From an uncultured Acidobacteriota bacterium (lineage in GTDB: Bacteria; Acidobacteriota; Terriglobia; Terriglobales; Acidobacteriaceae), in the NCBI GenBank assembly GCA_903851035.1, contig CAINND010000002.1, positions 1 through 53,604 on the forward strand: a DNA stretch of 53,604 bases. The letters run 5' to 3'. A program made the position numbers and the translations under genes. How positions within the stretch are numbered: position 1 is the stretch's first letter; every line of letters starts with the position of its first letter. Of the stretch, positions 1 to 40,254 are shown one piece after another. The notes under the pieces were generated by a model. That model was not told the DNA's origin. It made no database searches and saw only the letters and a list, made by a program, of their open reading frames with translations.

Positions 1-377
1 GCAGGTTTCCTTGCCGGGTGCCCTACCCTTCCGCCGTTCTCCGGCGGAGGGTGGGGCTGTTGACCTTGCTGTTGACCTTGCAGTTGCTCTTGCACTTGCT
101 TTTGTAGCTGTTCTTGAAGTGTCATCCTGAGCGAAGGCGGCGCGCCCCGCGCGTCGCCGCAGTCGAAGGACCCCTTGTGTAAGAGTGAAGTGCAGGTGCC
201 CCATCTCTGGCCCGTCTTTGGCCAGAGTTGGGAAGCAGAGCAGGCAGCACAGGTGCCCTACCCTTCCGCCGTTCTTCGGCGGAGGGTGGGGCTGTTGATT
301 TTGAATTTCCGGGTGCCCCATCCTAGCCGTAGTTGCTAGGGTGGGGTAGTTGACCTGGCAGCGCCCCATATTGACAG
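1..377. repeat. intergenic hairpin/hexamer repeat cluster
   Basis: No gene is seen here. The stretch holds one composite repeat in reverse orientation: hairpin at 16-56, pyrimidine-rich hexamer tract at 57-119 (CAANNN phase when read on the minus strand), and a TGTCATCCTGAGCG...GTCGAAGGACCCC element at 120-174. Three further hairpins of the GGTGCCCCAT...GTGGGG family follow at 195-233 (inner stem TCTGGCC/GGCCAGA), 252-290 (CCGCC/GGCGG) and 311-350 (CCTAGC/GCTAGG). The same modules recur near 11.7-12.3 kb, 14.3, 15.2, 22.6 and 25.7 kb. They lie beyond the 3' end of the minus-strand decarboxylase gene. Confidence 0.8.
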
Positions 378-7024: not shown

Positions 7025-8377
7025 TTACCTGGCAGCTTTCTTCGCCGCCTTCGTCTTAACCGCGCGCGCCTTCTTCAGGCTCTCCCAGTCCTTTTCCATC
7101 TGCTGGGCGTAGGCCACGGCAAATTTCTCCACCGCCTGCACAAATCCGCCGCCGCCGCCAATGTAGCCCGCAATCATCTGCACGTCTCCGCTGCGCGCGT
7201 GGCCTCGCGCCAGCAGTTCGCCGCACAGCTCGGCGTAGGCCGTCAGCCCCGCGCCCTTCAGGTCGGTTACTTCAATCGATGCCTTGTGGTCGTTAAGCTG
7301 CCGCACCAGGTACTGGCGCCCTTCCACGCTCGTCCAGCCCAGCAGTGGATCGCTCTGCATCTGCATTTTGCGTTGACCTTCGGCCACCGCCCGCCCGCAG
7401 TGAACTTTTGCCGCCCGCTTCACATACGGCAAATACGCCGAGCCCGGCTCCTCCTTGATTTGCAGGAACAGCGGGTCGTCCGTGCCATTGCCCTGCATGT
7501 ACACGCAGTAATCGCGCGTGCCCACGCTGCCCGTGCCCACCACCTTGAAGCACACATCCACCGCGCGGTACTGGTCCAGCATGTGCTGCCGCTCCGGCAA
7601 CAGGCTCCGCCGGTATTGCACCAGCGAGTCCAGCACCGGCCGTGCCTCCGTGTCGCTCAGCCGCCACAAGATCGGCTTGTTCTCTTTGAACTTTCTCGAC
7701 CCGCCCGCCGCCACCGTCAGCGACTCCAACGTGTGCAGCGGCGTTGCCCGCTCGGCCTTGCGCAGCACTCCGTCCACCGGCTCGGTCTTCATCAGCCGGT
7801 GAACCTGGTAGCGTGCCACCTCCAGCACCGGCATTTCGGCAAACTTGCGGACCCACAGGTGATAGCACGCCAGAAAGGCCTCAACCGCGCTCCGCGCCGC
7901 CGCATCCCGATCCCCGGCCTCGCGAGCCGCCAGAATCAGGCTCGTCGCCAGCCGCTTCAGGTCCCACTCAAACGGAGCCCGCACCGTCTCGTCAAAGTCG
8001 TTGATGTCGAAGACCAGGCGTCCATCCGGCGCGGCATAGGCTCCCAGGTTGCGCACATGCGCGTCGCCGCAAATCTGGTTCAGGATGCCCGTGTTGCGCA
8101 ACAGAGAAAGGTCGGCGGCCATCACCGGCACCGCGCCGCGAAAGTATCCAAAGGGCGAGGCCGTCATGCGCTCGTACTTGATGGGCACCAGCTCCGGCAC
8201 CCGTCCCTTCATGCTGGCGGCCATCAGCTTTAGCGGATCGTGCTTGCGCAGCTTCGCATCCCACAGCGCGTGCTGCTGCCGCTTCACTGCCTTGCGCCGT
8301 GCCTGTCCCGCCGCGCGCCGCTCTTTGCTCGTGGGTATCTCTGCGGATTTCGTTGGCATCGCTTTTCCATCACTCAT
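7025..8377 (-). CDS. DUF2252 domain-containing protein
   Basis: Matches the DUF2252 family, whose members are about 400-480 residues; this copy is 450 from the chosen start. Visible family features are the R-M-SPFGYFRG motif near the N terminus, GDAHVRNLGAY and VFDINDFDET (kinase-like acidic motifs), and TGSVGTRDYCVY and LQIKEE in the middle. The fold is thought to resemble aminoglycoside phosphotransferase-like kinases; the biochemical role is not established. The basic N-terminal (KERRAAGQARRKAVKRQQ) and C-terminal (KKARAVKTKAAKKAAR) tails are notable. The start at 8377 is chosen over 8440 because residues before it do not look family-like; ATG at 8359 is also possible. Confidence 0.85.
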   Translation of the reverse strand: MSDGKAMPTKSAEIPTSKERRAAGQARRKAVKRQQHALWDAKLRKHDPLKLMAASMKGRVPELVPIKYERMTASPFGYFRGAVPVMAADLSLLRNTGILNQICGDAHVRNLGAYAAPDGRLVFDINDFDETVRAPFEWDLKRLATSLILAAREAGDRDAAARSAVEAFLACYHLWVRKFAEMPVLEVARYQVHRLMKTEPVDGVLRKAERATPLHTLESLTVAAGGSRKFKENKPILWRLSDTEARPVLDSLVQYRRSLLPERQHMLDQYRAVDVCFKVVGTGSVGTRDYCVYMQGNGTDDPLFLQIKEEPGSAYLPYVKRAAKVHCGRAVAEGQRKMQMQSDPLLGWTSVEGRQYLVRQLNDHKASIEVTDLKGAGLTAYAELCGELLARGHARSGDVQMIAGYIGGGGGFVQAVEKFAVAYAQQMEKDWESLKKARAVKTKAAKKAAR

Positions 8378-8495
8378 GATGGCCCAAACCATACACCGCC
8401 TCGCACCGCTCCTCCAAGTGCTTTTGATTGACCATGCCACGGCCTTCCTTCGGCCGCAGTGTCCCTTGCGGCTTCATCCGTGACACAATGGATGC

Positions 8496-8645
8496 ATGAA
8501 GAACAAAAACCTCCGCGATCTGCAAAAGCAGTGGGCCACCAAACAGAAAGAGTCCGTCAAGGCGCCCCAGCCCTCCACCAGCAAAAGCCGTGCCGACCGC
8601 AACCAGGCGGCCATCGAGCGCGCCAAAAAGGCCGCCGGGAACTAA
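8496..8645 (+). CDS. small basic hypothetical protein (49 aa)
   Basis: An ATG frame encoding 49 residues beginning MKNKNLRDLQKQWATKQKES and ending IERAKKAAGN. It is Lys/Arg/Gln-rich, with no hydrophobic segment and likely helical. It is divergent from the DUF2252 gene and lies upstream of the DUF1161 gene. Codon use (GC-rich third positions, e.g. CGC GAT CTG) resembles neighbouring genes, which favours a real gene, but I recognise no family and see no strong ribosome binding site. Confidence 0.45.
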   Translation: MKNKNLRDLQKQWATKQKESVKAPQPSTSKSRADRNQAAIERAKKAAGN

Positions 8646-8786
8646 GCGCCCTCCACGGCAGCCATCCCGCGCCAGCCCTCCATGTGTTAAAGCTGCCCTG
8701 CAAAATATCCCGTCAACATCGCTGTGCAAGCCATCCATGTTTTGCAATCCTCTCCGCCGTGCCTGCCACGCAGGCCAGGAGAGAGC

Positions 8787-9062
8787 ATGATGAAACGGTT
8801 GGCTGCTGTTCTGCTGCTCGGTATGTTTTCGTTGAGTGGCCTCGCCTTCGCCGGCGTTCCCTGCGAGGAAGTGAAGGCCGATATCGCCAAGAAAATTGAG
8901 GCCAATGGCGTAAAGGCCTACACCCTGGAAGTCGTCGCCAAGGATAAGGAAGCCGAAGGCAAAGTTGTCGGCACCTGCGGCGGCGGAGCCAGCAAGATTG
9001 TTTACACCCGCGGCGCCGCCAAGGCTGAAAAGCCAGCCGCAAAAGCCCCCGAGAAGAAGTAG
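8787..9062 (+). CDS. DUF1161 domain secreted protein
   Basis: A 91-residue protein with a clear Sec signal peptide (MMKRLAAVLLLGMFSLSGLAFA). The mature part starts GVPCEEVKADIAKKIEANGV and contains GKVVGTCGGG...KIVYTRG, the pattern of DUF1161 periplasmic proteins with two conserved cysteines. The tail is Ala/Lys/Pro-rich (AKAEKPAAKAPEKK). The ATG at 8787 follows CAGGAGAGAGC, a good ribosome binding site; the next codon is also ATG. Function of the family is unknown. The gene is monocistronic and is followed by a terminator. Confidence 0.8.
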   Translation: MMKRLAAVLLLGMFSLSGLAFAGVPCEEVKADIAKKIEANGVKAYTLEVVAKDKEAEGKVVGTCGGGASKIVYTRGAAKAEKPAAKAPEKK

Positions 9063-9105
9063 CCTCCGCCTCTCCTTCCACCGGAGAGTGCATTGGCTGC
9101 AACCA

Positions 9106-9158
9106 TGCAGCGAGGAAGCGCGCGTCTCATCGCCACTTCCTCGCTGCACTCGCTTTTT
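9106..9158 (+). terminator. rho-independent terminator after the DUF1161 gene
   Basis: TGCAGCGAGGAAG at 9106-9118 pairs perfectly with CTTCCTCGCTGCA at 9136-9148 (13 bp, 17-base loop). TTTTT follows at 9154-9158. Confidence 0.75.
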
Positions 9159-9349
9159 ATGTGGGACGCGCCCTCGGCCCCGCCACATCCGCGCCTGCCC
9201 GCACTCATCGCCTTTTCTGACGGCATTAGTTTTCACGATTGGCATTGACAATTTCGCCGCCGATGGCAGAGCATCGAAGGTAGATAAAGCGGTCGTGCCG
9301 GCCGGTTTTCATATCCCAATCAAGGTTAGATCCCCAGAAGGAGCCTCCT

Positions 9350-10366
9350 TTGGCCACTATCTTTTACGCGAAAGACGCTCATCCCGAGGCGTTGCAGGGC
9401 AAGACCATCGCCGTCTTCGGCTATGGCAGCCAGGGCCAGGCCCAGGCCTTGAATCTGCGCGAGAGCGGATTCAACGTCATCATCGGACTGGACCCGACAC
9501 GCCCCACCGCCAAGCGCGCCCAGGAAGAAGGCTTTGAAGTTGTGCCCGTGGCCGAGGCGGCCAAGCGCGCCGACTATTTGCAGATTCTGACGCCGGATGA
9601 GACCCAGGGCGATATGTACGAAGAGTCGATCAAGCCGCATCTGACGAAGGGCAAAGCACTTGCCTTCTCGCACGGCTTCGCCATTACCTTCAAAACCATC
9701 GTGCCTCCGCCAGACGTGGATGTGATCATGATTGCGCCCAAGGGACCGGGCCATTTGGTGCGCCGCCAGTACACGGAAGGCCGTGGTGTGCCGGCACTTA
9801 TCGCCATTCACCAGGACGCCAGCGGCAAGGCTCACGAGCTGGGTTTGGCCTATGCCTACGGCATTGGAGCCACCAGGGCCGGTGTATTGCAGACCACCTT
9901 CAAGGAAGAAGCCGAGAGCGATTTGTTCGGCGAGCAGACAGTGCTGTGCGGCGGTCTCAGCTCGTTGATTAAAAAGGGCTTCGAGACCCTGGTGGAAGCC
10001 GGATACCAGCCGGAAATCGCCTACTTCGAGTGCTGCCACGAGGTCAAATTGATTGTGGATTTGATTTATGAAGGCGGCCTGGAGCGCATGCGCTACTCGA
10101 TTTCCAACACGGCCGAGTACGGCGATCTTACTCGTGCAGAAGTAGTTGTGGGCGATGAGACGAAAACGGCGATGAAGAAAGTGCTGAAGCAGATCCAGGA
10201 CGGCGACTTTGCCCGCGAGTGGATTGCCGAGCACAAGAGCGGCAACAAGAACTTCAACGCATTGAGAGCAAAGGAGAACGCTCACCAGATTGAGAAGGTT
10301 GGCAAGGAGCTGCGCAGCATGATGGACTGGCTTCCGGACGCAACCAAGAGCACGGTGAAGAAGTAA
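9350..10366 (+). CDS. ilvC: ketol-acid reductoisomerase (NADP+)
   Basis: Second common step of valine, leucine and isoleucine synthesis: isomerises and reduces acetolactate or acetohydroxybutyrate to the dihydroxy acid, using NADPH and Mg2+. The N-terminal Rossmann motif is [13 protein letters not shown]. The knotted C-terminal domain holds the metal and catalytic residues in DLFGEQTVL and [17 protein letters not shown], and SISNTAEYG. At 338 residues it is the short class I form. The start is TTG at 9350 after AGAAGGAG with 6-base spacing. A TTGACA hexamer at 9245 could be a -35 element, but no convincing -10 is seen. No other ilv/leu genes are adjacent. Confidence 0.97.
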
Positions 10367-10392
10367 GGCTCTTAAAGCAGAAACAAGTTAAG

Positions 10393-10424
10393 CCGCGCAT
10401 TCCCAAGGGGATGCGCGGTTTTTT
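10393..10424 (+). terminator. rho-independent terminator of ilvC
   Basis: CCGCGCAT at 10393-10400 pairs with ATGCGCGG at 10411-10418, followed by six T. Confidence 0.9.
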
Positions 10425-10727
10425 GTGCGCGGAATTCGATGATGGCGAATTTGCGCGCGCACGGTGGGTTTTTGCGTGAGTTTTTTGCGTGGTGGGGCGG
10501 ACGGAGGGGCCGTCGAGGGTGCAAATTGCGCGCGGGCGGGCAATTATTGCTTCAAAGACTGTGTGCCGCGACAGGGTTTGAAGGCGTTTGGCTTGAGTCG
10601 GGGCTTCGCTGGCCTTTTTGGTGAGAAAACCTGCACGGGAAACAGGAAAAATCTGAAGTCGGCGCGATTAAGGGGGCAGAGGGGAGATTCTCTGCGAAAA
10701 CTGGTAATTGGGGCAGGGTTTGGAGTG

Positions 10728-10763
10728 CCCACACAAGCCAACAGAGGGCTTGTATGGGCCACA
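10728..10763. repeat. hairpin repeat of the CCCAC...ATGGG family
   Basis: CCCACACAAGCC and GGCTTGTATGGG flank a short loop; the only unpaired position is the C:A pair seen in other copies. The remainder of 10425-10823 holds no convincing gene. The copy sits just upstream of the low-GC gene at 10824. Confidence 0.6.
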
Positions 10764-10823
10764 CTACGAACAGATAATGAATCAAAGAAGATTTTCTAAG
10801 TTAAGGCGAGGAGAAGCTGACCG

Positions 10824-11339
10824 ATGAATATTGAACAAATCAAAACACTACTTGAAATTGGTTATTATTCAGCAGGTATTGTGATTTGCATAGTTTCGAT
10901 CATTGGCCTCAATCAATTAAATCTTTTGAAACACGATATATTAATTCGCAATCAGCGTGCTGCTGCTGAGAAAGCTATTGAATACAATGTACGGTTTACC
11001 ACTATTTGTATTCCGCTCATTAATGCTTGGGACAAATGGCGTATCGACAATCAAATCCCGTCTTATTCCGGCTCTATTGGTAAATTTTCTTTTGATGAAC
11101 TCACCATAGAACAAAAGAAAACTACTTTGAACCGAGTCCATTCAGAAACATGGACACCTGTTTTTAATGAGCTCGGAGTTATCGCTGACGCATTTCTATC
11201 TGGTGTCGCGGATGAGAAAATTGGTTTCCAAAGTTTTGGTATTTGTTATTGCAAGACGATTGAATCGATGTACGACACACTTTGTTTTGCATATTCAGAT
11301 GAGGTACTACCTGAACTTCCCGTGACACCCCTACAATAA
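10824..11339 (+). CDS. hypothetical membrane-anchored protein, apparent C-terminal frameshift
   Basis: 171 residues as read. One N-terminal membrane helix (about residues 10-32, YYSAGIVICIVSIIGL) is followed by a soluble, helical region starting RNQRAAAEKAIEYNVRF. The outline resembles small DUF4760-type membrane proteins, but I am not certain of the family. Base composition is strikingly AT-rich against its surroundings and codon use differs (ATT, AAT, TTT), indicating recent transfer. The frame stops at 11339 right after a CCCC run at 11328-11331; one more C would join it to an open, charged frame to 11497. This is either a real frameshift or a sequencing error. Flanked by intergenic repeats. 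Confidence 0.6.
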   Translation: MNIEQIKTLLEIGYYSAGIVICIVSIIGLNQLNLLKHDILIRNQRAAAEKAIEYNVRFTTICIPLINAWDKWRIDNQIPSYSGSIGKFSFDELTIEQKKTTLNRVHSETWTPVFNELGVIADAFLSGVADEKIGFQSFGICYCKTIESMYDTLCFAYSDEVLPELPVTPLQ

Positions 11340-11497
11340 GAAGTCTCTATAATTTATGGGCACCTCGGATCAAAGCCAATAAACTTCGAATTCAAGAAAG
11401 AACGGCACATGAAAATCTATTATCTCGTCAAAAAGAGAAGGATGCCGCACTAGAAGACTTGAAGTCCCGCCCCCCGATTAAACCGATTGGCACATGA
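11340..11497 (+). pseudogene. frameshifted C-terminal continuation of the 10824 gene
   Basis: In the frame reached by adding one C at 11328-11331, the sequence continues SLYNLWAPRIKANKLRIQER and then a Lys/Glu-rich helix, ending KPIGT before TGA at 11495. Composition matches the upstream part. It has no start codon or ribosome binding site of its own. Confidence 0.5.
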
Positions 11498-11682
11498 ATA
11501 ACTAGAACCCTCCGCCTTACTTTCTCCTTTTCAGCTTTCACACCCGGCTATATCTATCTTGATAAGTACCGATAGGGTTTTCGATACTTATCAAGTGGCC
11601 GGGAGTTGGCATTGTGTCACCTCTAAGGAAATAATTTACTTGGTTCCCCTTCAACTGCTCATCTCTACACGGTCCACTTGCT

Positions 11683-12331
11683 TCCCACCTTAGCCGCGAC
11701 AGCGGCGGCGAAGGTGGGGCACCCGTCTTCACTCTGATATTAGGGGTTCTTCGACTGCGGAGGCGCTCGGCGCGCCTCCTACGCTCAGGATGACAGTGTG
11801 TAGCTTCTTGGTTGGTGACCTGGGGCGGAGCGGATGGTGTCTGCCGCGCGGGGTTCCTTCGGCTACGCTTCAGGATGACACTGCAGAAACAAGAGCAAGA
11901 ACAAGGACAAAATCAAAAGCAAAACCAAGAGCAAAGGCAAAAACAAAATCAAGAACCACTTCCCCACCCTAGCAACAACGGCTAGAGTGGGGCACCCAAG
12001 AGTGCAACAACAAATCCAAAGACAACTACCCCACCCTCCGCCAAAGGACGGCGGAAGGATGGGGCACCCGCTTGTGTGGAGCACTCGCTAACGTGGACTC
12101 CGCGTTTCCCACGTTTGGCCAAGGACGGGCCTGACATAGGGCACCAGACTTTTCTGGTTGTTTGATCGAGGGGCACATGCAACTGCAACTGCAACTACAA
12201 ACTCAAGATCCACTACCCCACCCTCCGCCAAAGGAGGGCGGAAGGATGGGGCACCGCTTGTGTGGGGTACCCGCTAACGTGGAGCGCGCGCTTCCCACGT
12301 TTGGCCAAGGACGGGCCAGACATAGGGCACC
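11683..12331. repeat. dense intergenic repeat field
   Basis: The 11498-12359 interval has no gene that I can support. It contains hairpins at 11683-11724, 11962-11997, 12029-12070, 12108-12145, 12215-12256 and 12294-12331. TCCTTCGACT/AGGATGACA-type elements lie at 11743-11796 and (degenerate) 11848-11881. CAANNN hexamer tracts lie at 11885-11956 and 12178-12210. Segment 12029-12145 and segment 12215-12331 are similar to each other in order and sequence, so part of the field is a local duplication. The tracts give spurious low-complexity reading frames (for example near 11790-11972). Confidence 0.8.
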
Positions 12332-12359
12332 AACTAAGATGGGGTCAACTTGCTGCGGA

Positions 12360-12533
12360 TTACTCCGCGGAGGTGGCGGCTTGCGAGGGAGCGTTGCCGC
12401 GAAGGTAGGCGATGGCCACTCCCACGGCCGTGCCCGCGAACATACCGATGATGGAATGGTGGTTGCAGAGCGCTCCGATGGCGGCGCCGATGTTGAATGA
12501 AACAGCCACCCAGAAGATATATCGCTTGAGCAT
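12360..12533 (-). CDS. small two-helix membrane protein with glycine-zipper character
   Basis: 57 residues: MLKRYIFWVAVSFNIGAAIG, then a His-His turn (CNHHS) and a second hydrophobic, Gly-rich stretch (IIGMFAGTAVGVAIAYL), ending in a short polar tail. Small-xxx-small spacing (G..A..G) suggests packed helices. ATG at 12533 is preceded by GAGG. It is divergent from the fumarase gene. Family and function not recognised. Confidence 0.55.
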   Translation of the reverse strand: MLKRYIFWVAVSFNIGAAIGALCNHHSIIGMFAGTAVGVAIAYLRGNAPSQAATSAE

Positions 12534-12685
12534 CGGGGAATCCTCGTTGATTTTCCATAGTAACGCAAGAGGGCCGCTGGGGAGGAGCCGGAAAGTGCCG
12601 GCTGTGGGCGAAAGCTGTGGCCTGCGGCGGGCGGTTTGCAGGATAATAGTCAGTTGTTTTGACACCTCAGAGGGAAAAGGCACTC

Positions 12686-14200
12686 ATGACGATTATTAAG
12701 CAGGAAGACCTCATCCAGAGCATTGCCGACGCGTTGCAGTTCATCAGCTACTACCATCCGGTGGATTTCATCAAGAGTCTGGCGGCGGCCTACGAGCGCG
12801 AGCAGGCTCCGGCGGCGCGCGACGCCATTGCGCAGTTGCTGATCAACAGCCGGATGTGCGCCGAGGGGCATCGTCCCATTTGCCAGGACACGGGGATCGT
12901 AAGCGTGTTTTTGAAGATTGGGCGCGAGGTGCACTTTGAGGGTGCGCTGCCGCTGGAAGAGATGGTGAACGAGGGCGTGCGGCGGGCCTACCTGCTGCCG
13001 GAGAACAAGCTGCGGGCCAGCGTGCTGAGCGATCCGGCGGGGGCGCGGAAGAACACCAGGGACAACACTCCGGCGGTGCTGAATGTGAGCATTGTAGAGG
13101 GCGACAAGCTGGACGTGATTGTTGCGGCGAAGGGCGGCGGGAGCGAGGCGAAGAGCAAGTTCGCCATGCTGAACCCGAGCGACAGCATTGTGGAGTGGGT
13201 GCTGAAGACGGTGCCGACGATGGGCGCGGGATGGTGTCCGCCGGGAATGCTGGGCATTGGCATTGGCGGCACGGCGGAAAAAGCCATGCTGCTGGCCAAG
13301 GAATCGCTGATGGACCCGATTGACATACAGGCGTTGCAGGCGCGCGGAGCAAAGAACCGCGCGGAAGAGCTGCGGCTGGAGTTGTACGAAAAGGTGAACG
13401 CGCTGGGCATTGGCGCGCAGGGGTTGGGCGGGCTGACCACGGTGCTGGATGTGAAGGTGAAGGACTATCCGACGCACGCGGCGAACCTGCCGGTGGCGAT
13501 GATTCCGAATTGCGCGGCGACCAGGCACGCTCACTTTGTGCTGGATGGCACGGGGCCGGTGGCGCTGAAGCCTCCATCACTGGAGGATTGGCCGAAGCTG
13601 ACGTACAGTCCGCAGAACGCGCGGCGGGTGAACCTGGACACGGTGACGCGCGAGGATGTGCAGACGTGGAAGCCGGGCGAGGTGATCCTGCTGAATGGAC
13701 GGCTGCTGACGGGACGCGACGCGGCTCACAAGCGCATGACCGACATGCTGAACCGGGGCGAAAAGCTTCCGGTGGACTTTACGAATCGGTTCATCTACTA
13801 CGTGGGGCCGGTGGACCCGGTGCGCGAAGAGGTGATGGGGCCGGCGGGTCCGACAACGGCGACACGCATGGATAAATTTACGCGTCAGATGCTGGAGCAG
13901 ACCGGGTTGCTGGGCATGGTGGGCAAGGCGGAGCGCGGTCCGGTGGCGATTGAGGCCATCAAGGACAACAAGGCCGTGTATCTGATGGCCGTGGGCGGCG
14001 CGGCATACCTGGTGGCAAAGGCGATTAAGAAATCTCGCGTGCTGGCCTTTGAGGACCTGGGCATGGAAGCCATCTACGAGTTTACGGTGGAGGATATGCC
14101 GGTGACGGTGGCGGTGGATTCCAAGGGAACGAGCGTGCACCAGACGGGTCCCGCGGAGTGGCAGGCGAAGATTGTGCAGATTGAGAAGGCGAAGAAGTAA
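12686..14200 (+). CDS. fumA: fumarate hydratase, class I (iron-sulfur)
   Basis: Converts fumarate to malate in the TCA cycle using an oxygen-sensitive [4Fe-4S] cluster. At 504 residues it is the fused alpha+beta form. Cluster cysteines are visible in CQDTG (about residue 73), GWCPPGMLGIGIGG (about 185) and PNCAATRHAHF (about 280). The beta part begins near PPSLEDWPKL and carries GEVILLNGRLLTGRDAAHKR and YYVGPVDP. The start at 12686 (MTIIKQEDL) follows AAGG with 5-base spacing and is preferred over an in-frame start at 12659. Monocistronic. A related tartrate dehydratase activity cannot be excluded. Confidence 0.93.
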   Translation: MTIIKQEDLIQSIADALQFISYYHPVDFIKSLAAAYEREQAPAARDAIAQLLINSRMCAEGHRPICQDTGIVSVFLKIGREVHFEGALPLEEMVNEGVRRAYLLPENKLRASVLSDPAGARKNTRDNTPAVLNVSIVEGDKLDVIVAAKGGGSEAKSKFAMLNPSDSIVEWVLKTVPTMGAGWCPPGMLGIGIGGTAEKAMLLAKESLMDPIDIQALQARGAKNRAEELRLELYEKVNALGIGAQGLGGLTTVLDVKVKDYPTHAANLPVAMIPNCAATRHAHFVLDGTGPVALKPPSLEDWPKLTYSPQNARRVNLDTVTREDVQTWKPGEVILLNGRLLTGRDAAHKRMTDMLNRGEKLPVDFTNRFIYYVGPVDPVREEVMGPAGPTTATRMDKFTRQMLEQTGLLGMVGKAERGPVAIEAIKDNKAVYLMAVGGAAYLVAKAIKKSRVLAFEDLGMEAIYEFTVEDMPVTVAVDSKGTSVHQTGPAEWQAKIVQIEKAKK

Positions 14201-14241: not shown

Positions 14242-14277
14242 CCCCACCCTAGCAACAACGGCTAGGATGGGGCACCC
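14242..14277. repeat. hairpin repeat (CCTAGC/GCTAGG type)
   Basis: CCCCACCCTAGC and GCTAGGATGGGG around a short loop, followed by CACCC. Immediately precedes the first 166-bp direct repeat. Confidence 0.75.
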
Positions 14278-14280
14278 ACA

Positions 14281-14446
14281 CCCGAGCTTCACTCTGGGAC
14301 AAGGGGTCCTTCGACTGCGGAGGCGCGGGGCGCGCCTCCTACGCTCAGGATGACAGTTCAAAAACAAGAGCAACATCAATAGCAAGAGCAAGTACAAGAG
14401 CAAAATCAAAGTCAACTACCCCACCCTAGCAACAACGGCTAGGATG
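14281..14446. repeat. 166-bp direct repeat, copy 1
   Basis: Composite repeat: CTTCACTCTGGGACAA spacer, TCCTTCGACT...AGGATGACAG element (14303-14356), CAANNN hexamer tract (14360-14417) and hairpin (14418-14453). It differs from copy 2 (15120-15285) at 6 of 166 positions. The two copies bracket the SnoaL-like gene. Confidence 0.9.
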
Positions 14447-14465
14447 AGAACCCGGCAGGGTAAGG

Positions 14466-15107
14466 ATGATGAAGATGTCGCGCCTGAAGTCAGCCATACG
14501 TGCAGTCCTTCTGACGCTGCTCATCTCTACAACCTTTGTTGCAGCGCAGTGGAGCATGGCGGCGGTGCCCACGCAAATACCGGCCGCAGCGGCACAGCCA
14601 CTTGCGGAGCGGAATCGCGCGGTCGCGCTGCGCGTGTTCGATGAGTTATTCAACCAGCGACGTCCCGAGGTGGCCGCAGAGATTTACGCGCCGAACTTCC
14701 GCAATCATGGGCTGCACAAAGATGCCACGCTCGAAGTGGATCAAGGCTGGGCGCGCGGTGAGCTGCATGCCTTCCCCGATTTGCACATGACGGTGTTGAT
14801 GACGGTGGCTGAGGGCGATTTAGTCACCATACTTTGGGTATTCAAAGGCACGCACGCGCGGAGCGGATACGGCAGCTTTCCCCCGACGGGCGCGGTGATG
14901 GAGTTCCGCGGGATAACGATCTTCCGCATTGTGGACGGTCGCATTGTGGATGAGTGGACGACCTTCAATCAAATGAGCGCTTATTCACAGGCCTTTCAGC
15001 ATCTGCGCTGGTGGATACTGGCCGCCGTGTGCCTGTTCCTGCTGGGGTGGATGTATGTAGGGCATGTCGTCTTCAGGTGGATTGTGCGCACTCGACTTCA
15101 TAGTTAG
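14466..15107 (+). CDS. SnoaL-like (NTF2-fold) ester cyclase-type protein, membrane-anchored at both ends
   Basis: 213 residues. A signal peptide or anchor (residues 8-33) is followed by a SnoaL-like domain: NRAVALRVFDELFNQRRPEV, YAPNFRNHG, FPDLHMTVLMTVAEGDLVTI, GITIFRIVDGRIVDEW. A C-terminal membrane helix (WWILAAVCLFLLGWMYVGHVVF) is unusual for this normally soluble fold. Family members include polyketide cyclases and many uncharacterised proteins; no substrate can be named. The gene is bracketed by near-identical 166-bp direct repeats. The ATG at 14466 may be replaced by the second ATG (14469). Confidence 0.75.
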   Translation: MMKMSRLKSAIRAVLLTLLISTTFVAAQWSMAAVPTQIPAAAAQPLAERNRAVALRVFDELFNQRRPEVAAEIYAPNFRNHGLHKDATLEVDQGWARGELHAFPDLHMTVLMTVAEGDLVTILWVFKGTHARSGYGSFPPTGAVMEFRGITIFRIVDGRIVDEWTTFNQMSAYSQAFQHLRWWILAAVCLFLLGWMYVGHVVFRWIVRTRLHS

Positions 15108-15119
15108 TACTGCCAACTA

Positions 15120-15285
15120 CCCGAGCTTCACTCTGGGACAAGGGGTCCTTCGACTGCGGAGGCGCTGGCCGCGCCTCCTACGCTCAGGATGACAGGTCAA
15201 ATACAAGAGCAAAATCAATAGCAAGAGCAAGTACAAGAACAAAATCAAAGTCAACTACCCCACCCTAGCAACAACGGCTAGGATG
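15120..15285. repeat. 166-bp direct repeat, copy 2
   Basis: Same order of modules as copy 1: element at 15142-15195, hexamer tract about 15199-15256, hairpin from 15258 to 15293. Two of the six differences fall in the loop-side bases of the GGAGGCG...CGCCTCC stem. Confidence 0.9.
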
Positions 15286-15322
15286 GGGCACCCGAGCCAT
15301 TTTTCTTCAACTTGATTCAGTT

Positions 15323-15362
15323 TCCCACCTCTGGCCAAAGGAGGGCCAGAGATGGGGCACCC
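15323..15362. repeat. hairpin repeat (CTCTGGCC/GGCCAGAG type)
   Basis: CCCACCTCTGGCC and GGCCAGAGATGGGG flank an AAAGGAG-type loop, then CACCC. The inner stem differs from the CCTAGC type 30 bases upstream, but the outer ends are the same. It lies 12 bases beyond the motB stop. Confidence 0.75.
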
Positions 15363-22628: not shown

Positions 22629-22728
22629 AGGGGTCCTTCGACTCCGCTGCGCTGCGCTCAGGATGACAGAGCAAAAACAAGAACGAAAACAAAAAACAAG
22701 AACAAAAACTAGATCAGGAGCAAAAGAA
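22629..22728. repeat. composite repeat without its hairpin module
   Basis: GGGGTCCTTCGACTCC...CTCAGGATGACAG (22629-22668, short form) is followed by a CAA-rich hexamer tract to 22728. The usual hairpin is missing and the tract runs into the terminator of the FtsB-like gene. Confidence 0.75.
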
Positions 22729-25627: not shown

Positions 25628-25800
25628 ATCCCCACCCTGACAACAACACCGGAGTGGGGCACCCGTGTTCACCGGAAGAGTTGCGCGATGGTAGGGGTCC
25701 TTCGACTCCGCTGCGCTGCGCTCAGGATGACACCTAAAAACAAAAAAAATCAAAATCAACTACCCCACTCAAGCCAAAAGATGGCTTGAATGGGGCACCC
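25628..25800. repeat. composite intergenic repeat
   Basis: A degenerate hairpin at 25630-25664, short-form TCCTTCGACTCC...AGGATGACA element at 25693-25732, short A-rich hexamer tract at 25735-25757 and hairpin at 25763-25800 (CCCCACTCAAGCCA / TGGCTTGAATGGGG). It lies between the convergent cutA and methyltransferase genes. Confidence 0.75.
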
Positions 25801-39054: not shown

Positions 39055-39085
39055 CTTGCGCGTTTATTAGAGTGAATGATGAATG

Positions 39086-39217
39086 AAGGCCTCCCATATG
39101 GGAGGTTTTTGCCGTGCAGCGGAGTTTGCGCTTGAGGCCGCGCGGCGGGGTGCCTACACTGTTTGCGAGGAACGTCCCCCACTCAAGCCAAAGGAGGGCT
39201 TGAATGGGCCACCCGCC
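39086..39217. repeat. 132-bp direct repeat, copy 1
   Basis: Begins with the palindrome CCTCCCATATGGGAGG (39090-39105) plus TTTTT, and ends with a hairpin of the CCCAC...ATGGG family (AAGCC/GGCTT stem) and CACCCGCC. Differs from copy 2 (40123-40254) at 4 positions. The remainder of 39010-39337 is the gene remnant and the leader of the next gene. Confidence 0.9.
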
Positions 39218-39958: not shown

Positions 39959-39999
39959 GGTGCCCCATGTCTGGCCTGCTGTTGGCCAGACGTGGGATG
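39959..39999. repeat. hairpin repeat (GTCTGGCC/GGCCAGAC type)
   Basis: GGTGCCCCATGTCTGGCC, a 7-base loop, then GGCCAGACGTGGGA. In this orientation the variable position pairs as U:G in RNA. The surrounding 39725-40122 has no gene that I can support. Confidence 0.7.
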
Positions 40000-40122
40000 C
40001 AGGACATTTCATTACGGGGGATGCTAAGTGCGCGGAGAGCCCAGCGCTACCCCGCCAGCAGCCAGAAAGTTCTAAAATCGTCTGCTAAGGCCGGCCATTT
40101 CCTTCCGCAAATTTTCTGAATT

Positions 40123-40254
40123 AAGGCCTCCCATATGGGAGGTTTTTGGCGTGCAGCGGAGTTTGCGCTTGAGGCCGCGCGGCGGGGTGCCTACACTGTT
40201 TGCGAGGAATGTCCCCCACTCAAGCCAACAGAGGGCTTGAATGGGCCACCCGCC
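40123..40254. repeat. 132-bp direct repeat, copy 2
   Basis: Same order as copy 1: palindrome at 40127-40142 with T5, a GC-rich middle (GAGGCCGCGCGGCGGGG), and a terminal AAGCC/GGCTT hairpin ending in CACCCGCC. It lies 56 bases before the start of the next gene, as copy 1 lies upstream of the 39338 gene. Confidence 0.9.

Follow-up and report, generated by a model that had tools for sequence, protein, structure and literature searches.

The repeat that recurs in the analysed stretch of 53,604 nucleotides (the window) from an uncultured Acidobacteriota bacterium is predicted to be a chain of single-strand hairpins rather than a single mobile unit, and this is regarded as the best explanation overall, with a probability of about 0.6. 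The orientation of the chains follows the GC-skew strand, taken here as the replication strand, and points away from origin-type skew jumps. In addition, the chains gather at several chromosomal sites at which the skew changes sign in the manner usual for a replication origin. As contig C2, the window belongs to a genome of 3.26 Mb (121 contigs, 98.9% complete); its features are listed in Table 1. Skew was measured as GC skew at third codon positions, corrected for gene strand. The leading strand is usually G-rich, and the replication strand was named on this basis, from GC skew only.

An earlier note on this DNA had described the repeat as a composite of three fixed modules, namely an element (a), a tract of hexamers each beginning with CAA (b) and a hairpin (c), and all six of its instances were found at the places given and with the module order given. 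The modules occur beyond chance, since genome-wide patterns gave 18 matches for a, 61 for c and 105 overlapping matches for (CAANNN)4CAA, and the reversed controls gave 0. With a wider exact pattern, 40 copies of a were found in the genome; at least two CAANNN units followed within 80 bp downstream in 33 of them and at least three in 24, while none of the 40 had at least three units upstream, and a same-strand c lay within 150 bp downstream of 23. Looser patterns, applied to 529 kb of the genome, yielded 49 a and 113 c (two more c matches were put aside as 'other'), and none of these c had an a in opposite orientation within 150 bp. Neighbouring c hairpins no more than 300 bp apart faced the same way in 47 of 48 pairs and opposite ways in one. 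The modules are thus not shuffled, and the a-b-c order and orientation are real genome-wide.

The list of six copies was incomplete, as the window holds 14 further c-type hairpins and one more a (11744-11795). The statement that the repeat is intergenic only was nearly correct, with 108/113 c, 48/49 a and 43/43 b (runs of at least four units) outside the genes called by a home-made gene caller on the draft assembly. The spacer described upstream of a was confirmed as CTTCACTCT, present at 11727-11735, 14287-14295 and 15126-15134, two of these directly behind a c hairpin; a further piece that recurs behind c hairpins is GTTGGTGACCT. In a wider contig collection the composite matched two loci, one of which is a chance match (L071) and the other real (L072, Acidobacteriota MAG_BO89), and the congener G046 carries a composite copy.

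Table 1. Repeat modules and skew jump located in the window (positions from its first nucleotide)
Feature	Position	Strand	Remark
c3 hairpin	17-56	-	CCCTCCGCC stem, in reversed chain
b linker	57-116	-	CAANNN tract, 10 units (one CAG)
Module a	120-173	-	long form
c6-like hairpin	195-232	-	TGGCC stem
c3 hairpin	252-291	-	
c1 hairpin	312-346	-	
GC-skew jump interval	8290-12690		reversed copies (16-350) on its left, forward copies on its right except c6 at 39959 (-)
c5 hairpin	11683-11723	+	then CTTCACTCT
Module a	11744-11795	+	long form
Module a	11852-11880	+	degenerate short form
b linker	11890-11955	+	11 CAANNN units
c1 hairpin	11962-11996	+	
b linker	12005-12028	+	joins two c hairpins
c3 hairpin	12029-12068	+	
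c6 hairpin	12107-12145	+	
b linker	12180-12209	+	
c3 hairpin	12216-12255	+	
c6 hairpin	12293-12331	+	
c1 hairpin	14242-14276	+	ahead of composite
Module a	14304-14355	+	long form
b linker	14359-14418	+	10 units, CAACTA last
c1 hairpin	14419-14453	+	degenerate 3' foot
Module a	15143-15194	+	long form
b linker	15198-15257	+	10 units, CAACTA last
c1 hairpin	15258-15292	+	
c6-like hairpin	15323-15361	+	
Module a, then CAA-rich tract	22631-22668	+	without c
Degenerate c hairpin	25630-25663	+	
Module a	25695-25732	+	
b linker	25733-25762	+	short, irregular, CAACTA last
c2 hairpin	25763-25799	+	variant flanking the C92 transposase gene
c2' hairpin	39177-39213	+	without CAA tract
c6 hairpin	39959-39997	-	
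c2' hairpin	40214-40250	+	without CAA tract

Module c is not one fixed hairpin, as the earlier note had it, and comprises six or more stem families whose ends are shared (c1 24, c2 21, c2' 7, c3 38, c4 3, c5 9 and c6 11 among the 113 copies in 529 kb). At least five of seven stem pairs are kept in 48 of 51 distinct 37-mers from this genome and its relatives, with 22 different arm pairs, and the stems thus vary in paired fashion. A CAANNN unit stands directly 5' of the hairpin in 20/24 c1, 18/21 c2, 29/38 c3 and 3/3 c4 and is rare in the other families (c5 0/9, c6 2/11, c2' 1/7); the exact form NAACTA precedes 9 c1, 15 c2, 22 c3 and 3 c4 hairpins.

Only two Y1_Tnp genes (Pfam) were found in the genome, on contigs C92 and C37, and both are flanked by inverted copies of c (c2 at C92, c3 at C37; elements of 658 and 680 bp). 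Both proteins lie above the cut-off of 80 for NCBIfam NF047646 (REP_Tyr_transpos), at 111.8 and 110.2 bits. Among solved structures, TnpA-REP (4er8, E 1.3e-14) comes closest to the C92 protein, the sole protein searched. Three of the four ends of these transposons contain CAACTA or a near form (CAACTA/GAACTA). Among 62 Y1 loci of the genome and its relatives, 53 were tested for terminal inverted repeats (TIRs), nine being too short, and the score was above ten shuffles in 45 (one barely) and not in 8. About 19 of these 45 have c-type ends by eye, the others having different kinds of TIR. The Y1 genes of the relatives are flanked by stems like c2', c3, c5, c6 and, loosely, c1, and no c4-type stem was seen beside a Y1 gene in the genome or in the relatives' loci. 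Module c is therefore a transposon end, namely the terminal hairpin of small Y1 (HUH) elements of the REP-associated tyrosine transposase (RAYT) kind, and a separate transposase probably exists for every stem family.

The likeness to RAYT/REP systems (REPtrons and REPINs; NF047646, E. coli TnpA-REP 4er8) lies in a Y1 HUH gene flanked by an inverted hairpin that is also dispersed between genes, and single-strand chemistry is expected in both. The differences are that many stem families coexist here and that the 5' GTAG guide is missing: by eye neither GTAG nor GGAG was seen at the 5' hairpin foot, which reads CAACTA or similar, and GTAG occurs 3' of the hairpin on the opposite strand. REPINs, moreover, are inverted pairs, whereas the present hairpins form same-orientation chains with CAA linkers. 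TIRYT elements (TIRtrons; Di Nocera 2013, PMC3733652) are similar in having a transposase with TIRs, some of which form repeat families, and the available text of that source places them in Acidobacteria including K. versatilis. Since acidobacterial transposases with TIRs are already published there, the c elements represent a new set of members and not a new kind. They differ in that GGGGWSAS, the motif given for the majority of TIRs in PMC3733652, was absent by eye from the TIRs here, which read GGGGTAGTTG / GGGGCACC, and the available part of that source gives neither CAA linkers nor an orientation by replication. The available text on triplex repeats (PMC4666352) holds nothing on the a-b-c element, and among the matches listed for the module sequences in the literature, the titles concerned unrelated subjects.

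Module a, read in reverse, is TGTC-ATCCTGAGCG...CGAAGGA and, judged by sequence, resembles the CGTC/TGTC-tagged REP superfamily; the module is widespread in the family. According to the available text of PMC3733652, CGTC-tagged REPs apparently have no dedicated transposase, their tag is often TGTC, and their stem of 8-9 bp starts with two A-T pairs. TGTC is present in 40/40 exact copies of a, being fixed by the construction of the pattern, and the first stem pair, read by eye, is A-C (GGACC) in this genome; further differences are that longer forms of a carry an inner GC hairpin and that a is chained to c. Of 150 family genomes, 119 matched the pattern of a, eight of which also have the CAACTA-c pattern, the only form of c covered by that search, and this distribution speaks against a and c being one unit. 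Genomes rich in a had no Y1 match (G034 with 94 copies, G019 with 58 and G139 with 53), and module a taken alone showed no orientation lock in G127 (12 copies in agreement with skew vs 9). For both reasons a c-type transposase does not explain a. A dedicated transposase for a is suggested by one locus, L095 (also L186), a Y1 element on contig C71 of G026, a genome of another genus, whose TIRs carry the core of a between c-type ends. This was the sole such case among the 58 of 62 Y1 loci scanned. The three genomes just named speak against such a transposase, and on the whole the data agree with PMC3733652. Many solo copies of the hybrid hairpin occur in G026, a hint that the a and c repeats share an ancestry.

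As for orientation, 39 of 43 clusters agree with the local corrected third-codon GC skew (p 3e-8). Where |skew| exceeded 0.1, agreement was 33/34 with a 6-kb window and 30/31 at 10 kb; a 15-kb skew window gave 38/43 clusters, and coarser 20-kb regions 23/28. By family, the ratio of agreeing to disagreeing elements was 44:5 for a, 24:0 for c1, 18:3 for c2, 5:2 for c2', 35:3 for c3, 1:2 for c4, 8:1 for c5 and 8:3 for c6. The median |skew| grew with element density from 0.105 to 0.361, and the AT skew was weak (signed mean 0.027, agreement 58%). In G026, which carries mostly solo hairpins, 26/33 agreed in 20 regions selected by hand from 73 listed places, with 19/19 at |skew|>0.1 and 7/14 below. 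The weak-skew agreement in G026 thus equals chance and, together with that of c4 (1/3), counts against the orientation model. In small samples, elements of G046 (L182), G021 and two stretches of G132 agreed with strong skew; for another G132 element (L185) the surrounding skew is weak and mixed, and skew is near 0 at that of G103 (L188).

An orientation that recapitulates replication direction is known for IS200/IS605 elements (PMC5371812), and for IS608 and ISDra2 the available texts attribute it to use of the lagging-strand template (PMC5371812, PMC6006769). The present repeats share this orientation, with replication direction derived from GC skew, and differ in being mostly solo end hairpins in chains instead of complete insertion sequences. 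In Pseudomonas fluorescens SBW25, tandem REP arrays run forward at one place and in reverse on the opposite side of the chromosome (PMC3116915), a similar arrangement, with two chromosome sides in the available description and many local sign changes here.

By analogy with IS608 and ISDra2, the transposases would act on the single-stranded lagging-strand template, so that new copies would be inserted, and would build up, in a single orientation with respect to the moving fork. CAACTA, at the 5' foot of the hairpin, may occupy the place of the guide sequence of the family. The least certain step concerns the linkers, which would have grown locally by slippage beside the hairpins and would stay unpaired to let adjacent hairpins fold on their own. 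A bias of insertion towards the lagging strand does not by itself account for strong skew being found mainly near the clusters.

The skew itself changes sign sharply. In the window, raw GC skew is -0.19 to -0.23 at 2-8 kb and +0.17 at 12-14 kb, and the corrected gene skew passes from -0.36 (gene ending at 8287) over +0.03 (9350-10366) to +0.45 (gene from 12686). The survey, which covers 1.35 Mb and 849 scored genes (41% of the genome, partly picked for repeats), contained nine sharp upward jumps above 0.25 and no downward one below -0.25; among 639 steps, 42 exceeded +0.3 and none fell below -0.3, and 60 exceeded +0.2 with 10 below -0.2. Repeats lie within 12 kb of eight of the nine jumps. The jump on C91 was counted as having none because its sole nearby copy (a, 42217) had been assigned to a gene by the gene caller and was dropped. 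One upward step with no repeat near it (C94, at about 5 kb) came from a smaller 19-kb scan, and fine mapping added a tenth jump on C99, close to the contig end. Between jumps the skew declines gradually, as on C89 (115 kb, Spearman -0.80). Of nine stretches tested, six have slopes between -0.041 and -0.058 per 10 kb and that on C2 has -0.086, whereas the slope is not significant for C24 beyond 21 kb and C37 beyond 92 kb. Within 40 kb of the ten jumps, which were located on the same skew data as used for element direction, 103 of 110 elements point away; four of the seven exceptions are no more than about 1.1 kb from the estimated position of the C79 jump, and another is an end of the C37 transposon. 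Genes within 20 kb of jumps point outward in 123 of 195 cases and at 25-40 kb in only 33-39%.

The contig carrying dnaA (C85) has no strong skew jump, and DnaA boxes (at most one mismatch) in the nine jump intervals numbered 8 vs about 4.7 expected, with no clear cluster (at most three, on C79). With E. coli K-12 as a yardstick, 0/119 steps went beyond 0.25 either way, and in the oriC stretch no upward step occurred at oriC, the largest (+0.10) being some 16 kb away. The measure therefore gave no false jumps there, yet it is insensitive, as it missed oriC. Among relatives, G127 had five steps up and three down beyond 0.25 and none beyond 0.35, G026 had 0/54 beyond 0.25 and seven stretches of four other relatives 0/16; one stretch of G046 (L181) runs from about -0.25 to about +0.2. 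A comparable upward-only pattern was thus absent from the samples of E. coli and of the relatives.

The orientation of the chains along the skew strand would also be expected if selection kept them as polar motifs whose orientation is read in replication, segregation or repair, as with KOPS or Chi, or as initiation sites, with transposition having only supplied the hairpins. The enrichment of clusters near jumps (17 of 35 within 15 kb, vs 20% of the sequence, p 1.8e-4) and the constant CAA phase amid varying remaining bases fit this explanation as well. However, the pattern CAACTACCCCAC..GGGGCACC occurs 33 times here against 3, 1 and 0 times in congeners, which is unlike an essential signal, and a transposase with the same hairpins is present, so that selection for a polar motif is considered rather unlikely.

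Between hairpins, module b forms a linker, (CAA-V-D-D)n, that is almost without base pairs and in which the CAA phase is constant and the other three bases vary. In 31 tracts of at least five units, totalling 261 units, C, A and A stand at positions 1-3 in 259, 256 and 255 units, figures that lean towards CAA because a unit was selected on at least two of these three letters; the free positions shun T at 4 (6/261), C at 5 (1) and C at 6 (4). When 15126-15296 was folded as DNA, each of the two strands gave a better fold than its shuffles (z -3.0 and -3.6), and b took part in one 2-bp helix in each DNA centroid and in none in the RNA fold. The linker also joins c to c, and it precedes c in the congeners G046 and G132 and in G021, of another genus. 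A coding role was rejected: in some copies b is in frame with an ATG by eye, yet stops are not avoided, as T at position 4 creates a stop codon in five of the six units that have it.

The linkers bear directly on the claim that the composite is one unit. No run of five consecutive hexamers was common to any two dispersed tracts of at least five units, and shuffled hexamers shared none either; the three tract pairs that do share five are local tandem copies on C37. Long linkers were therefore not carried by transposition and must have been made or rewritten at each locus with the phase kept, possibly by local slippage beside the hairpins together with selection for an unpaired spacer, an origin proposed with low confidence. 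Short linkers behind a GGTTTC tract look alike across loci. A single non-autonomous composite a-b-c that jumps whole would account for the fixed order and orientation and for the 96% likeness of 14280-14446 and 15119-15285 over 167 nt (7/10 linker units in common between the tracts at 14359 and 15198), but this pair lies only 839 bp apart and may be a local duplication. Among 86 c1-c4 hairpins, only 31 have an a within 150 bp upstream and 39 have neither an a nor another c there, and one copy compared with plasmids gave no match. A single mobile composite was thus rejected as the main reading because long linkers differ at dispersed loci, and it is now improbable; mobility as suggested in the earlier note holds for the c part, as a RAYT-type transposon end hairpin, and not for the whole, in which a and c also occur alone.

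Several side observations concern these tracts. The longest b tract (L049, 3881-3976 on C24) has 16 units, CAACGG/CAAGAG/CAAAAG, with no a or c directly attached and a GGTTTC tract upstream. This second kind of tract, (GGTTTCNRA)n, consists of 9-mers (L049, L051, L052, L057, L062, L066) and precedes a short b and a c hairpin in 9 of the 16 tracts listed, in copies without a; in G021 an 8-9-mer tract (GAGCTRCT) takes its place.

A role in RNA was also weighed, in which a hairpin, an unstructured A-rich tract and a second hairpin would form an element of gene 3' ends, for example a landing site for Hfq or Rho. Of the occupied gaps that lie between two called genes (n=51), 17 are convergent and 4 divergent, compared with 19 and 48 among all gaps of at least 150 bp (n=162), and the fold of 15126-15296 as RNA has a z of -3.0. 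Against this, tandem gaps carry the elements with transcription in 15 cases and against it in 14, the local coding strand is matched by just 84 of 162 elements, and orientation follows skew instead. No Rfam family matched the window at gathering score (two sub-threshold matches were to eukaryotic families, E<=1). An orientation-specific RNA role is therefore not favoured, and an RNA element is very improbable as the explanation of the chains.

Many inversions or misjoins between clusters in a single-origin chromosome, with the elements only marking breakpoints, would fit the enrichment near jumps, the several contigs that end in or near clusters and an assembly in 121 contigs, but such events should yield equal numbers of upward and downward borders and no gradual declines, against nine vs none here and gradual declines on seven of nine stretches tested, so that they are the least credible source of the pattern and local initiation or another site-centred process is the simplest one.

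Sharp minus-to-plus jumps followed by near-linear declines are the pattern of multi-origin chromosomes and count in favour of multiple initiation. Tentatively, the chromosome may thus be copied from many initiation sites, with the chains recording fork direction or helping to start replication, a reading that as a whole remains doubtful. Since the nick made by an HUH enzyme provides a primer end, the chains could conceivably help initiation. The idea that the elements cause skew by nicking, downstream only, was not adopted, since strong skew also lies 5' of minus-strand elements (this window and C115).

Read as chains of single-strand hairpins, the repeats would preserve the identity of the strand that served as lagging-strand template, and this record and the GC skew do not fit one origin per bacterial chromosome. 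We know of no bacterium with several confirmed initiation centres, and the present one would be the first if replication profiling confirmed it. Double origins have been proposed in very few cases, according to the available text of PMC4403523. Even without multiple initiation, the replication-locked orientation of IS200/IS605 is extended here to solo RAYT-type hairpins, several hairpin families are tied to transposase genes, and a periodic linker is described that has no ready explanation.

Two minor features of the window were also observed. Beside the jump lies an ORF of 171 aa (10824-11339) in a 2-kb bin of 48% GC, compared with 58-66% in the other bins; this ORF looks foreign. Further downstream, a direct repeat of 138 nt (39080-39217 and 40117-40254, 96% identical) terminates in c2' hairpins that lack a CAA tract.
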